Shown here: piece by piece, positions 35,023 to 39,314 of the stretch
Layout: every line of letters begins with the position of its first letter
How positions within the stretch are numbered: position 1 is the stretch's first letter
Source: Clostridia bacterium
GTDB taxonomy: Bacteria > Bacillota_A > Clostridia > Christensenellales > Aristaeellaceae
DNA length: 40,327 bases
Assembly: GCA_017938645.1 (NCBI GenBank)
Contig: JAGBBE010000069.1
Coordinates: 1 to 40,327 of the forward strand
Direction of reading: 5' to 3'
Made by a program: the position numbers and the translations under genes
Notes under the pieces: model-generated
What the model was told of the DNA's origin: nothing
What the model saw: the letters and a program-made list of their open reading frames with translations, nothing else
Database searches by the model: none

Positions 35023-36876
35023 GTGTTAAGAACCATCTCGCCTGCTGAAATGAAGCGGGTCGAAACCGAGGTGATGGAGAAGACGTCCATCACAGGCGAA
35101 AGGCTGATGCAGCGCGCTGCAGCGCATGTTGCGGACATGGCGGAGCGTTTGATTTGCAGTCGCAAGGGCTGTGTCCTGTGTCTGTGCGGCACAGGCAACA
35201 ACGGCGGCGACGGCATGGCGGCCATGCGGATTCTGGCGGAACGGAGTGTGGATTTTCAGGGCGAGTGCTGGGTACTTCCGGGAAATCTTTCTGCAGATGC
35301 GGTGCGTGAATTGGATAGGCTCGCTCAAACACAGGTCAAAATCGTCCGTATCGGGAGTACGCTTCCCTCTATTCCTGATCATGTGAACTGCATCATTGAT
35401 GCGTTGTTTGGAACCGGCCTTTGCCGGGCGCTTGAGGGCTTGGCAAAGGAGTGCTGCATGCTGATGAACGCACTGGATGCGCCGGTGATAGCGGTGGACA
35501 TTCCCTCCGGCCTCAATGGTCTCACTGGAGAAATATTGGGCACGGCGGTCAAAGCTGACTATACGGTTACATTCCATCGTCCCAAGCACGGCCTGTATCT
35601 GAAACAGGGGCCGGATTGCGCCGGTGAAATCGTGGTGGGAGACATCGGCCTGCCTGCCCGGCTGGATGATGCAGGTGGTTTTGCAATGCTTGAAAAAAGT
35701 GATCTTGCCCGTCTGCTGCCCAGACGCGCGCGGGTGAGTCACAAAGGCAGCTATGGCCGCGTGCTCCTGTGGGCGGGATCGCGCGGAATGGCCGGTGCGG
35801 CGGCGATTGCTGCTACAGCGGCGCTGCGCACGGGTGCGGGTCTGGTCACCGTGGCCTGCCCCGACCGGATTGTTGAGATTGTGCAGGTGCTCTGTCCCTG
35901 CGCAACCTGCCTGCCGCTTCCGGAGGATGCGGACGAGGCATGGATACTGCTTTCGGAGGCGATAGACCACTGTGACGCTGTGGGCGCGGGATGCGGGCTT
36001 GGCAGAAGCGAATGGGCGGCTGAGCTGCTTGAAAAACTGCTTGCAGCAAAGAAGCCCATGGTGCTGGATGCGGACGTGCTCAACCTGATGGCATCAGAGG
36101 ACTTGCAGGCAAACGGCGCATTCCTTACGCCTCATCCCGCCGAGGCGGCAAGGCTTCTGGGATGCAGCGTTTCCGACATTGTTGCGGATGCGCCTCTGGC
36201 AGCGCAGAAACTCGCAAAGGACAACGCTGTCATTCTCAAGGGCGCATGCAGTGTCCTCTGCGATGGCGAAAAAATGGCGATCAATCCCTATGGAACACCC
36301 GGCATGGCCAAAGGCGGCAGCGGCGACGCGCTCACCGGCGTGATGGCTGCGCTTCTGGCTGGGCGAGCAGCAGGCGCATATGCGATGGATGATCTTGAAT
36401 TGATGCAGACTGCCTGCGCGCTTCACGGCATCGCCGGAGAAATGGCGGAGGAGGCGTATGGTGAGCGAGGAATGCTTGCCACCGACCTTTGCGATTTTTT
36501 AGGGCGGATTGAAATGGAAAAACCGAACATTCTATTTCGGAGGAAAGAGGAAAATTCGGATCACTTGGGCCGCCCTGTGACGGTTATTGTGGAACGCAGA
36601 GCGGGTATGCGCACAGAAGGAGCGGAGTCTGCTCCCGGTCGTCTCAACTGCGGTTATGCGCAGGAGGTGCTGGAGCGGGAAAACCGCTGGCAGGATGTGT
36701 TTATCTGGGGGATATCAAAGCCGCTGGAATGGTTTGAGGGCGTGGTGATTGCATCAGCGTATATAGACGGCGTGGAAAAATGGATCGCAGGATCTGAAAA
36801 TCTGCGCCTTTCCGAGTCGGAAGTCAGGCGGGAACTTTCCGTTTTGGGCAGCATTGAATCGGTCTGCTGTCTGTGA
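35023..36876 (+). CDS. nnr: NAD(P)HX epimerase/dehydratase (NnrE-NnrD) with a C-terminal pyrophosphatase-like domain
   Basis: A 617-aa protein that repairs hydrated NAD(P)H. Residues 1-215 are the YjeF_N epimerase (CGTGNNGGDGMAA at 55-67, IIDALFGTGL, VDIPSGLNG). Residues 225-495 are the ADP/ATP-dependent dehydratase (GSYGRVLLWAGSRGMAGAA, LTPHPAEAARL, GMAKGGSGDALTG). Residues 498-617 are extra: HLGRPVTVIVERRAG, NCGYAQEVL, WQDVFIWGISKPLEWFEGVVIA and EKWIAG. These follow, from memory, small Firmicute inorganic-pyrophosphatase-like proteins. Several canonical acidic metal ligands seem replaced, for instance GVEKW where DDK-type residues are usual. The start is GTG 35023 with GGAGGG upstream. The ATG at 36514 could be an internal start but has only a weak site. 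Confidence 0.9.
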   Translation: MLRTISPAEMKRVETEVMEKTSITGERLMQRAAAHVADMAERLICSRKGCVLCLCGTGNNGGDGMAAMRILAERSVDFQGECWVLPGNLSADAVRELDRLAQTQVKIVRIGSTLPSIPDHVNCIIDALFGTGLCRALEGLAKECCMLMNALDAPVIAVDIPSGLNGLTGEILGTAVKADYTVTFHRPKHGLYLKQGPDCAGEIVVGDIGLPARLDDAGGFAMLEKSDLARLLPRRARVSHKGSYGRVLLWAGSRGMAGAAAIAATAALRTGAGLVTVACPDRIVEIVQVLCPCATCLPLPEDADEAWILLSEAIDHCDAVGAGCGLGRSEWAAELLEKLLAAKKPMVLDADVLNLMASEDLQANGAFLTPHPAEAARLLGCSVSDIVADAPLAAQKLAKDNAVILKGACSVLCDGEKMAINPYGTPGMAKGGSGDALTGVMAALLAGRAAGAYAMDDLELMQTACALHGIAGEMAEEAYGERGMLATDLCDFLGRIEMEKPNILFRRKEENSDHLGRPVTVIVERRAGMRTEGAESAPGRLNCGYAQEVLERENRWQDVFIWGISKPLEWFEGVVIASAYIDGVEKWIAGSENLRLSESEVRRELSVLGSIESVCCL

Positions 36877-36933
36877 AATGGCGAAAATGGGAAACGATTC
36901 TTCTTATCGCACATAAAAAAGCAAAACTTCAAA

Positions 36934-36946
36934 AACGTTCGGAAAT
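36934..36946 (-). promoter_or_regulatory. PurBox-like site 1 (PurR operator candidate)
   Basis: The minus strand reads ATTTCCGAACGTT, 12 of 13 positions of the Gram-positive PurBox AWWWCCGAACWWT. It lies just upstream of the -35 of the purE promoter. Confidence 0.55.
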
Positions 36947-36950
36947 AAGG

Positions 36951-36979
36951 TTGACAATCCCTCTGGTTTTCGATAAAAT
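36951..36979 (+). promoter_or_regulatory. Promoter of the purine operon
   Basis: TTGACA (36951-36956) and TAAAAT (36974-36979) are 17 bp apart, among the best promoters in the window. The expected start near 36986 gives a leader of about 180 nt before purE. No known purine, PRPP or ZTP riboswitch consensus was recognised in that leader. Confidence 0.82.
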
Positions 36980-36985
36980 ATTCCT

Positions 36986-36998
36986 ATCGTTCGGAAAG
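36986..36998 (-). promoter_or_regulatory. PurBox-like site 2 (PurR operator candidate)
   Basis: The minus strand reads CTTTCCGAACGAT, 11 of 13 PurBox positions. It has the same orientation as site 1, 52 bp away (core CGTTCGGAAA on plus in both), and covers the expected transcription start. Confidence 0.45.
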
Positions 36999-37013
36999 GA
37001 GGCAGGCTGACGC

Positions 37014-37169
37014 ATGCGTTCGAAGGTTGTGTATCGCTTTGTCCGCTTTCAGCGCCAGTTCTCTCTGCTTTTTGAACGACAGCATCATATTTGCATTCCG
37101 GATGCAGCCGCGCAGCGTCCCTGCGTGATGGCTGCATCTTTTTATGCACATGGAGGCACAGAAGAATGA
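37014..37169 (+). CDS. 51-aa leader ORF spanning the purE attenuator
   Basis: An uninterrupted ORF in the purE leader, starting MRSKVVYRFVRFQRQF and ending GGTEE. AGGAGG lies 11 nt upstream, and the TGA stop overlaps the purE ATG (ATGA). The frame runs through the intrinsic terminator hairpin at 37101-37143, so ribosomes translating it would cover that hairpin and hand over directly to purE. The peptide is basic, has no recognised family, and may matter only for its translation. It is not proven to be expressed. Confidence 0.5.
   Translation: MRSKVVYRFVRFQRQFSLLFERQHHICIPDAAAQRPCVMAASFYAHGGTEE
37092..37143 (+). terminator. Transcription attenuator before purE
   Basis: The terminator has an outer 9-bp stem (37101-37109 with 37130-37138), an inner 5-bp stem (37111-37115 with 37121-37125) and five T residues (37139-37143), ending 22 nt before purE. 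An alternative 5-bp hairpin (37092-37096 with 37102-37106) uses the 5' half of the outer stem and could serve as an antiterminator. Confidence 0.72.
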
Positions 37170-37648
37170 AAAAAGTAGCGGTTATCATGGGTTCCGACAG
37201 CGATCTCCCCGTTCTCGAAGGCTGCTTCAAGACCCTCAAGAAGCTCGATATTCCCTATGAGGCGCACGTTTATTCCGCTCACCGCACCCCTGCGGAAGCG
37301 GCGGAGTTTGCCAGAAATGCCCGTGCCAACGGCTTTGGCGCCATCATCGCCGCTGCCGGCAAGGCTGCTCATCTGGCCGGTGCGCTGGCTGCACAGAGCA
37401 TTCTGCCCGTCATCGGCATCCCCGTCAAAGCGAGTGCGCTGGACGGTTTGGACGCGCTGCTGTCCACCGTGCAGATGCCCGGCGGCATTCCCGTTGCCAC
37501 TGTTGCCATCAACGGCAGTGAAAACGCTGCGCTTCTGGCCGCGCAGATGATTGCCCTGAGCGATGAAGAACTTGCCGGCAAGCTCCTCGACATGCGCGAG
37601 GAAATGCACCAGAGCGTTCTGAAGAAGGACGCCGCCCTGAACGTTTAA
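37166..37648 (+). CDS. purE: N5-carboxyaminoimidazole ribonucleotide mutase
   Basis: A 160-aa class I PurE for de novo purine synthesis. Motifs are [10 protein letters not shown], the catalytic-region YSAHRTP (His39, Arg40), [16 protein letters not shown] and [15 protein letters not shown]. The ATG at 37166 has GGAGG 9 nt upstream and overlaps the leader ORF stop. It is first of purE-purM-purN-purO-AICAR transformylase. A class I PurE normally works with PurK, which is not in the window. Confidence 0.96.
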
Positions 37649-37668
37649 CCTACGGAGGAAAGAAAATC

Positions 37669-38709
37669 ATGAAGAGCGAAAGCGCAAGCTACAAGGCTGC
37701 AGGCGTGGATATCACCGCCGGTTACAAGGCTGTTGAACTGATGAAAAAGCACGTTGCCCGCACCCGCAACGAGGGCTGTCTGGACGATGTGGGCGGCTTC
37801 GGCGGCTGCTTCGGCCTGCCTGTGGCCGGAATGGAAGAGCCTGTGCTCGTTTCCGGCACCGACGGCTGCGGCACCAAGGTCAAGCTCGCCATCCTGATGG
37901 ACAAGCACGACACCATCGGCATCGACGCCGTGGCCATGTGCGTCAACGACATCATCTGCTGCGGCGCAAAGCCCCTGTTCTTCCTGGACTACATCGCCTG
38001 CGGCAAGAACGTCCCCGAGAAGATCGCCGAGATCGTCGGCGGCGTGGCCGAGGGCTGCGTCCAGTCCGGTGCTGCCCTGATCGGCGGCGAGACTGCCGAG
38101 CATCCCGGCCTGATGCCCGTGGACGAGTATGACCTGGCCGGCTTCGCCGTGGGCATCGTCGACAAGAAGAAGATCATCGACAACACCCGCATGGCCGCCG
38201 GCGACGTGGTCATCGGCCTGGCCTCCACCGGCATCCACTCCAACGGCTTCTCCCTGTGCCGGAAGGTCTTCAACATCGACGCCAATCCCGATTCTCTGTA
38301 TGTGAAGCGCGAGGACCTGGGCGGCAAGAGCGTTGCCGAGGCCCTGCTGGTCCCCACCCGCATCTATGTCAAGTCCGTCCTGGCTCTGCTGGAGCAGGTG
38401 GATGTGAAGGGCATCTCCCACATCACCGGCGGCGGCTTCTATGAGAACATTCCCCGTTCCATCCCCGACGGTCTGGGCGCGAAGATCGACAAGAGCGCCG
38501 TCAAGGTCCTGCCCATCTTCGACGTCATCGCCAAGGAGGGCAACATCCCCGAGCGCGACATGTTCAACACCTACAACATGGGCGTGGGCATGAGCATCGT
38601 GGTCCCCGCAGCTGAGGTCGATAAGGCCCTTGAGATCCTGAGCGCCAACGGCGAGACTGCCTATGTCATCGGCGAGATCGTCGAATCCGACGAGAAGGTG
38701 ATCCTGTGA
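37669..38709 (+). CDS. purM: Phosphoribosylformylglycinamidine cyclo-ligase (AIR synthase)
   Basis: A 346-aa PurM, which closes the imidazole ring to make AIR using ATP. Characteristic segments are [67 protein letters not shown] and [20 protein letters not shown] lies 10 nt before the ATG, and the stop overlaps the purN start (TGATG). Codons end in C or G far more often than in genes upstream of purE. Confidence 0.97.
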
Positions 38710-39314
38710 TGAAGACCCGGATCGCAGTTCTCGTCTCCGGCGGCGGCACCAATCTCCAGGCTCTGCTGGAGGCCGAGGCTGCCGGTAAGATCCCCCACGG
38801 TGAGATCTCCCTGGTGCTGGCCAATAATCCGGGCGCTTACGCGCTGGAGCGGGCCAAGAACTTCGGCGTTCCCGGCGCTGTCGTCACGAAAAAGGAGTGC
38901 GGCGGCTCCCAGGAGCAGTTCGAGGACACCATCCAGGCGGTCCTGGAGCGCAACGGCACCGACATGATCATCCTGGCGGGCTTCATGAGCATCCTGAGCG
39001 AGCGGTTCACTTCCCGCTGGCCGGGCCGGATCATCAACATCCACCCCAGCCTGATCCCCGCCTTCTGCGGCGAGGGCTTCTACGGCCTGCGGGTCCACGA
39101 GGCTGCCCTCCAACGGGGCGTCAAGCTCACCGGCGCCACCGTCCACTTCGTCAACGAGATCCCCGACGGCGGCCCCATCATCCTGCAGAAGGCTGTGGAG
39201 GTCCGCGAGGGCGATACCCCTGAGATCCTGCAGCGCCGGGTCATGGAGCAGGCTGAATGGCTCCTGCTGCCCCAGGCCGCAGAGATCGTGGCTGAGCAGC
39301 TGCAGAAGAAGTAA
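38709..39314 (+). CDS. purN: Phosphoribosylglycinamide formyltransferase
   Basis: A 201-aa folate-dependent GAR transformylase. The catalytic triad is visible as Asn110 and His112 in IINIHPSLIPAF, and Asp153 in IPDGGPIILQKAV. The N-terminal VLVSGGGTNLQALL is also standard. It starts at the ATG overlapping the purM stop. A palindromic repeat immediately follows the stop codon, before purO. Confidence 0.96.
   Translation: MKTRIAVLVSGGGTNLQALLEAEAAGKIPHGEISLVLANNPGAYALERAKNFGVPGAVVTKKECGGSQEQFEDTIQAVLERNGTDMIILAGFMSILSERFTSRWPGRIINIHPSLIPAFCGEGFYGLRVHEAALQRGVKLTGATVHFVNEIPDGGPIILQKAVEVREGDTPEILQRRVMEQAEWLLLPQAAEIVAEQLQKK

Follow-up and report, generated by a model that had tools for sequence, protein, structure and literature searches.

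A leader open reading frame reaching an intrinsic terminator at the purE operon of a Clostridia bacterium and its relatives, a candidate translation-dependent attenuator

The purE leader in the window (the whole stretch of 40,327 nucleotides that was analyzed) is probably a translation-dependent transcription attenuator of a purine operon, predicted from its sequence to act on top of PurR-type promoter control and to be ON when its leader open reading frame (ORF) is translated. A 51-codon open frame is by itself not improbable; the evidential weight rests on relatives. Judged against shuffled sequences, the unit of ORF plus terminator at purE is not due to chance. An earlier note on this DNA had proposed translation-linked attenuation with passage of the ribosome through the terminator into purE; that overall reading is partly supported.

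Architecture of the purE leader

The features of the promoter, the leader, and the start of the operon are as follows.

36934..36946, + strand: PurBox-like site 1 (AACGTTCGGAAAT), just 5' of the -35 element, with GTTCGG at 36937
36951..36979, + strand: promoter TTGACA-17-TAAAAT, sigma-70-like, 11/12 consensus matches
36986..36998, + strand: PurBox-like site 2 (ATCGTTCGGAAAG), at the predicted transcript start, with GTTCGG at 36989
36987..37079, + strand: leader hairpin, predicted by folding, pairing the ORF ribosome site with the middle of the ORF
36995..37002, + strand: Shine-Dalgarno sequence of the leader ORF (AAAGGAGG), strong, from the sequence
37014..37169, + strand: leader ORF of 51 codons, ATG start, TGA end, from the ORF list, with such ORFs recurring in relatives
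37030..37035, + strand: TGTATC, a copy of the UGUAY motif over-represented in the leaders
37100..37143, + strand: intrinsic terminator inside the leader ORF, predicted by folding (hairpin 37100-37139, T tract 37139-37143)
37166..37648, + strand: purE (AIR carboxylase family; PF00731, 205.7 bits), the putatively regulated gene

The gene cluster behind the leader is purE-purM-purN-IMP-cyclohydrolase. The promoter scan of 36500-37400 returned a single sigma-70-like promoter, with 0.5 expected, from which transcription would start at approximately 36986. The two PurBox-like sites form a direct repeat, 52 nt apart, with one on each side of this promoter. These GTTCGG sites resemble the PurBox consensus and are putative binding sites of PurR.

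The leader ORF and its strong ribosome site were present as the earlier note had described them, and so were a complete terminator within the ORF and a stop codon overlapping the purE start, the TGA and the ATG (37166-37168) being joined as ATGA at 37166. The terminator hairpin has a predicted energy of -25.9 kcal/mol (z -4.70), and 0 of 200 shuffled sequences were equally stable; a simple terminator scan, which allowed no bulge and loops of 3-8 only, left this bulged hairpin unlisted and listed one other site (1.4 expected). Against the protein database, the leader peptide matched itself alone (a cluster of 2 member sequences from 6 contigs). The upstream hairpin that the note had called a competitor of the terminator does exist, at -36 kcal/mol, but 10 of 200 shuffles were equally stable (z -2.08), so that it is only mildly unusual. 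Moreover, the single minimum-energy fold contains both the leader hairpin and the terminator; therefore the two would not compete, and the leader hairpin would instead bury the ribosome site.

When the whole window was compared with 4227 Rfam families, riboswitches and T-boxes included, no match reached its gathering score, which bears out the earlier statement that no known riboswitch could be found here. At E values up to 10, the region 36870-37260 gave one chance-level sRNA match only, and the ZTP riboswitch (RF01750) was absent. A known riboswitch at the window leader was rejected for want of a match. When six leaders of the genus-level group to which the window belongs were aligned with it, the parts that proved conserved were the box, the promoter, the ribosome site, and the terminator core, and the interior of the ORF was little conserved, a pattern that argues against an aptamer.

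The leader unit and its promoter in relatives

Relatives were gathered with PurE as bait, the first set comprising 80 loci. PurE was present in 16 of 17 genomes in the genus of the closest relative, and the further sets yielded it in 77 of 100 relatives and in 18 of 18 genomes of a second genus; across the family it occurred in 243 of 308 genomes, from part of which upstream regions were taken. Twelve loci without a placed purE start were dropped before all counts, and the 229 placed starts gave 226 with at least 200 nt upstream and 205 non-redundant upstream regions. With the terminator cut-off at -11 kcal/mol and a T-rich tail ending in -140 to -8, these 205 were divided into 13 with a ZTP pattern, 100 without a terminator by the cut-off, 37 in which the terminator was not preceded by a strong ribosome site at 40-150 nt, and 55 that were testable. 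The figure of 13 is a sequence-pattern count and is too low, as the Rfam-confirmed L114 and L115 were missed; neither is among the 52 leaders described below. The likely terminator of L088 fails the cut-off, and this locus stands outside the 55, with its leader ORF assigned by eye only.

In 52 of the 55 leaders, an ORF no shorter than 15 codons extended as far as the terminator, compared to 28.0 +/- 3.4 (maximum 37) in 300 dinucleotide shuffles. The criterion for these 52 was an ORF that ended at most 20 nt short of the hairpin, the three others being L023, L215, and L202. When one fixed start was used per leader, 50 of 55 reached the terminator versus 26.7 +/- 3.0 (maximum 36). For the subset with less than 60% identity, the values were 12 of 15 and 6.3 +/- 1.7, with the highest of 500 shuffles also giving 12. 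The leaders share ancestry. The note's reading is supported by the ORF plus terminator, which recurs above shuffles, but not in respect of passage through the terminator, which is a minority form (8 of 52).

Among the 52 leaders, the ORF stopped before or at the 5' edge of the hairpin in 15, inside it in 29, and beyond it in 8. Seven of these last 8 stop within -5 to +4 of the purE start (background over all frames after the hairpin, 36 of 156 frames), a result that favors the proposed joining of the ORF to purE, and 5 of the 8 end in an ATGA overlap like that of the window (background, 27 of 156 frames). On this comparison of sequences, the window is of the minority form, its ORF crossing the terminator and linking up with purE; what the leaders have in common is that the frame stays open as far as the terminator, and not that it continues through the hairpin. 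Conservation of the frame through the hairpin was rejected, frame-breaking changes in close relatives that keep the hairpin being an outcome that the note had named as refuting its reading: the start-to-hairpin distance varies among kin (86 nt in the window, 88 in L101, 78 in L086, 86 in L001, 86 in L087, and 76 in L089). Relative to L101, by eye the most similar leader, the window ORF carries a net change of frame with the hairpin kept, and L086 and L089 likewise differ from the window in frame. The window-like leader of L101 (1310-2832) precedes a decayed pur operon, in which an interrupted purE passes into purM-like sequence with a purL-like frame behind it (the purM and purL labels are by reading); because of this decay, constraint on L101 may be relaxed.

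Coding evidence for the leader frame, as read from composition and alignments, is moderate. Over 1329 in-frame codons, Pro was depleted (63 versus 108 in shuffles) and Lys (69 versus 37), Met (38 versus 20), and Gly (99 versus 78) were enriched. Stop codons numbered 40 and 34 in the other two frames, their absence in frame stemming partly from the selection of ORFs. A column-permutation coding test gave 25/1000 and 14/1000 for two sets from a single genus, whereas a third set, of five sequences that are 93% identical, showed no signal (328/1000). The leader peptides differ between lineages. By eye, the Ruminococcus-type leaders L044, L061, and L073 have an in-frame SAHS-like stretch in common, possibly a lineage-specific arrest or constraint motif.

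Among 20 loci put to Rfam, RF01750 was found in front of purE in 7 (L093, L095, L110, L113, L114, L115, and L117) and in 0 of the 11 leader-ORF loci tested. Within the nearest genus, the 16 genomes that have purE were sorted by reading into 7 with leader-ORF forms (L081, L086, L087, L088 by eye, L089, L090, and L092), 2 with ZTP forms (L093 and L095), 1 with purE close behind the promoter (L091), 5 with box-like sites but without a leader ORF (L094 and L096-L099), and 1 with a leader ORF before the decayed operon (L101) together with a second purE lacking a leader ORF (L100).

The promoter-proximal sites also recur. PurBox-like site 1 lies 5' of the -35 element in most kin aligned with the window, and pairs 51-54 nt apart were seen in L088, L089, L120, L101, and L195 as well. 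GTTCGG or CCGAAC occurred in 104 of the 205 purE upstream regions, where base composition would predict approximately 32, and 33 of the 52 leader-ORF leaders contain one or the other. In the nearest genus, a profile search found PuR_N (PF09182) above its cut-off in 13 of 17 genomes; G016 and G001, the two with the closest PurE, are among the 13, and G011, G013, G018, and G020 are not. In the same 17 genomes, the PurBox-plus-promoter pattern matched 7 places in 6 genomes, compared to 5 matches of a reversed control pattern, and by coordinates 4 of the 7 are the purE promoters of G006, G018, G001, and G020. PurR-type control of the purE promoter is the probable layer beneath the proposed leader attenuation. 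Elsewhere, a PurBox-like site with TTGAC lies near position 1500 of L248 (genome G001), 5' of a frame that is sialidase-like by reading, and the place in L246 lies 5' of a frame without assigned identity; in L250, the place was not found on the strand scanned.

A proposed translation-dependent switch and its alternatives

In the proposed switch, a ribosome would load on the exposed Shine-Dalgarno sequence and trail RNA polymerase closely, covering the 5' arm of the terminator so that the hairpin is prevented and transcription continues into purE. In leaders with an ORF that overlaps purE, such as that of the window, the ribosome could in addition pass on to purE. Without timely arrival of a ribosome, the body of the ORF would fold over the ribosome site, the terminator would form, and purE would be off. 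We infer translation of the ORF, termination at the hairpin, the ON-when-translated polarity, and the handover to purE from the arrangement of these elements. Nucleotide supply, acting via polymerase speed, and general translation capacity are the leading guesses for the signal.

A recurrent antiterminator using the 5' arm of the terminator was not found in the 52 leaders (mean z 0.05, s.e. 0.13; window, -1.5), and a 7-pair hairpin at approximately 37091-37107 that overlaps the terminator foot in the window has an energy of -4.9 kcal/mol (z -0.97). Pairing of the ribosome site with the ORF body exceeded that in shuffles across the 52 leaders (mean z -1.04, s.e. 0.16); the window itself has no excess (z -0.2). 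Pause proxies, taken from the sequence of the same leaders, were TTNTTT (13 versus 10.7 +/- 2.2), TTTT (31 versus 24.2 +/- 2.7), purine runs of at least 7 (11 versus 8.3 +/- 2.0), A runs of at least 4 (18 versus 11.9 +/- 2.5), and the elemental-pause pattern (0 versus 3.4 +/- 1.9), and the NusG-type pause motif was not enriched in them. According to one study, ribosomes of Escherichia coli repress terminators located inside an ORF or close behind it, with the effect gone beyond approximately 27-30 nt, and unless there is pausing the ribosome will probably not draw level in the first 100 bp (PMC4824070). As described in PMC7858274 with reference to Johnson et al. 2020, a short stop-to-terminator distance serves as a proxy for polymerase outrunning the ribosome. 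If that proxy holds here, a ribosome could occlude the terminator only where a pause allowed it to reach the polymerase.

The arrangement could also be that of a small gene or gene remnant with an ordinary leaky terminator, purE being expressed by constant read-through and regulated at the promoter only. Ordinary long open frames at the same loci end at a median of -7 nt from a terminator (n = 82, of which at least one, 37644-38883 on the minus strand and antisense to purM, is spurious), and such gene ends in close kin do so at a median of -10 (n = 19). With 61 of the 82 ordinary ends within -20 to +35 of a hairpin, ordinary genes also end near terminators, and therefore closeness alone is no evidence of a switch; the divergence of the leader peptides between lineages would likewise suit this explanation. 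Deep overlap of stop and hairpin (at least 9 nt), however, is commoner in the leaders, at 28 of 52 versus 18 of 82 ordinary ends and 1 of 19 in close kin, and the window ORF passes the hairpin and ends on the purE start. The promoter in front of the leader was the only one that the scan of 36500-37400 returned, so that any transcript of purE has to traverse the hairpin. On balance, we consider this explanation unlikely.

Two further alternatives were weighed. Attenuation could be specific to a codon or peptide, the ribosome halting for a tRNA or at an arrest peptide, with Cys as the best candidate: its codons number 98 in the leader ORFs versus 60.1 +/- 6.7 in shuffles, they cluster 30-40 nt before the hairpin (28 versus 12.9 +/- 3.3), and at least one precedes the hairpin in 46 of the 52 leaders. 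The remaining 6 have none there, no long Cys runs occur in the listed leader peptides, and the cluster comes largely from one genus and partly reflects a TGTAY nucleotide motif that is found in other frames too. We know of no link between Cys and purE, and we regard this alternative as quite improbable. The motif itself might be the target of an RNA-binding factor or ligand, on UGUAU or an undescribed RNA fold, with the ORF incidental. No 5-mer is more over-represented in the leaders than TGTAT (37 versus 4.8 expected, 7.8-fold, compared to 1.7-1.9-fold in three comparison sets; 17 versus 3.1 outside one genus); TGTAY precedes the hairpin in 27 of 52 leaders versus 6.7 +/- 2.3, 2-4 copies are present in 16 of 52, and the last 200 nt ahead of purE contain TGTAYC in 21 of the 52 leaders, compared to 2 of 13 ZTP-like upstream regions and 14 of 140 others. 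But 23 of the 52 leaders lack TGTAY, the copies fall at varied positions and frames, terminator loops included, and the little-conserved ORF interior in the window and its six kin and the absence of an Rfam match also speak against such an element, which would leave the open frame unexplained. We therefore judge it very improbable. For the UGUAU/Cys signal, conceivable roles are those of a pause, a site for a protein, or a portion of an arrest peptide.

Returning to translation-dependent attenuation, a more elaborate version can be drawn from these observations, that of a purine attenuator lacking a riboswitch and spread through a lineage, in which a fast-drifting leader ORF is kept open to the terminator, a pause or factor marked by UGUAU couples the ribosome to an otherwise outrunning polymerase, and the leader gauges purine or translation status in the position that the ZTP riboswitch takes in relatives. 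We offer this version as speculation and judge it unlikely.

Comparison with known attenuators and purine regulators

Ribosome-dependent attenuation of nucleotide synthesis is classic for the pyrimidines in E. coli. There, pyrE is controlled by translation of the upstream rph, translation that ends beside the terminator lowering termination; the upstream ORF in that case is a full-length gene, whereas that of the window has 51 codons and is leader-specific. The ZTP (pfl) riboswitch resembles the purE leader in its location, before purE and with a terminator, at seven of the relatives' loci, but differs in that it matched neither the window nor the 11 leader-ORF loci. If the attenuation reading is true, leader-ORF attenuation and the ZTP riboswitch would be two unrelated RNA solutions to one control problem, each occupying the same junction of promoter and gene in members of a single genus-level group.

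The PurR-PurBox system of Bacillus subtilis shares with the window TTCG-centred boxes near a purine promoter. One paper describes the Bacillus PurBoxes as two inverted 14-bp boxes, 16-17 bp apart, 5' of the -35 element (PMC8789054). The geometry of the window is different because the Bacillus boxes are an inverted, close pair and those of the window are direct repeats, 52 nt apart, that flank the promoter. Leader elements before one-carbon or purine genes also include the fthC upstream ORF of Streptococcus, with a stop in the hairpin before the terminator, and the purS motif of Corynebacterium, a proposed translational riboswitch (PMC11109978); both belong to other genera and genes and have other structures than the purE leaders. 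Among open-access titles and the beginnings of abstracts, no leader-ORF attenuator at purE was encountered, and the term "purE" occurs 0 times in PMC8632094 and PMC11109978 and once in PMC6429828. Should the attenuation reading be true, the purE leaders would provide a test case for ribosome-dependent attenuation where gene ends suggest runaway transcription, in the sense of PMC7858274.

Amino-acid attenuators of the trp type likewise combine a short leader ORF, a terminator, and a biosynthetic operon. Their terminators are located more than 20 bp from the leader stop (PMC4824070); the purE leaders differ from this description in having no recurrent antiterminator and stops at or in the hairpin, and the window ORF, instead of stopping more than 20 bp before the terminator, passes the hairpin. 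In pyrBI of E. coli, an intrinsic terminator lies inside a leader ORF of 135 bp (PMC4824070). The likeness is that of a nucleotide-synthesis operon with a terminator inside a short leader ORF that a trailing ribosome can block, and the window leader ORF contains the terminator of such an operon. The differences are that pyrBI is a pyrimidine operon whereas the window carries a purine operon with PurBox-like sites, that the pyrBI terminator lies inside the ORF whereas most purE relatives have an ORF that terminates at the hairpin or within it and does not go past it, that the pyrBI leader peptide is apparently unrelated to those of purE, and that a pause or nucleotide response, a mark of the pyrBI type, is hypothetical for the purE leaders. 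On this comparison, we place the purE leaders nearer to pyrBI than to the attenuators of the trp type.
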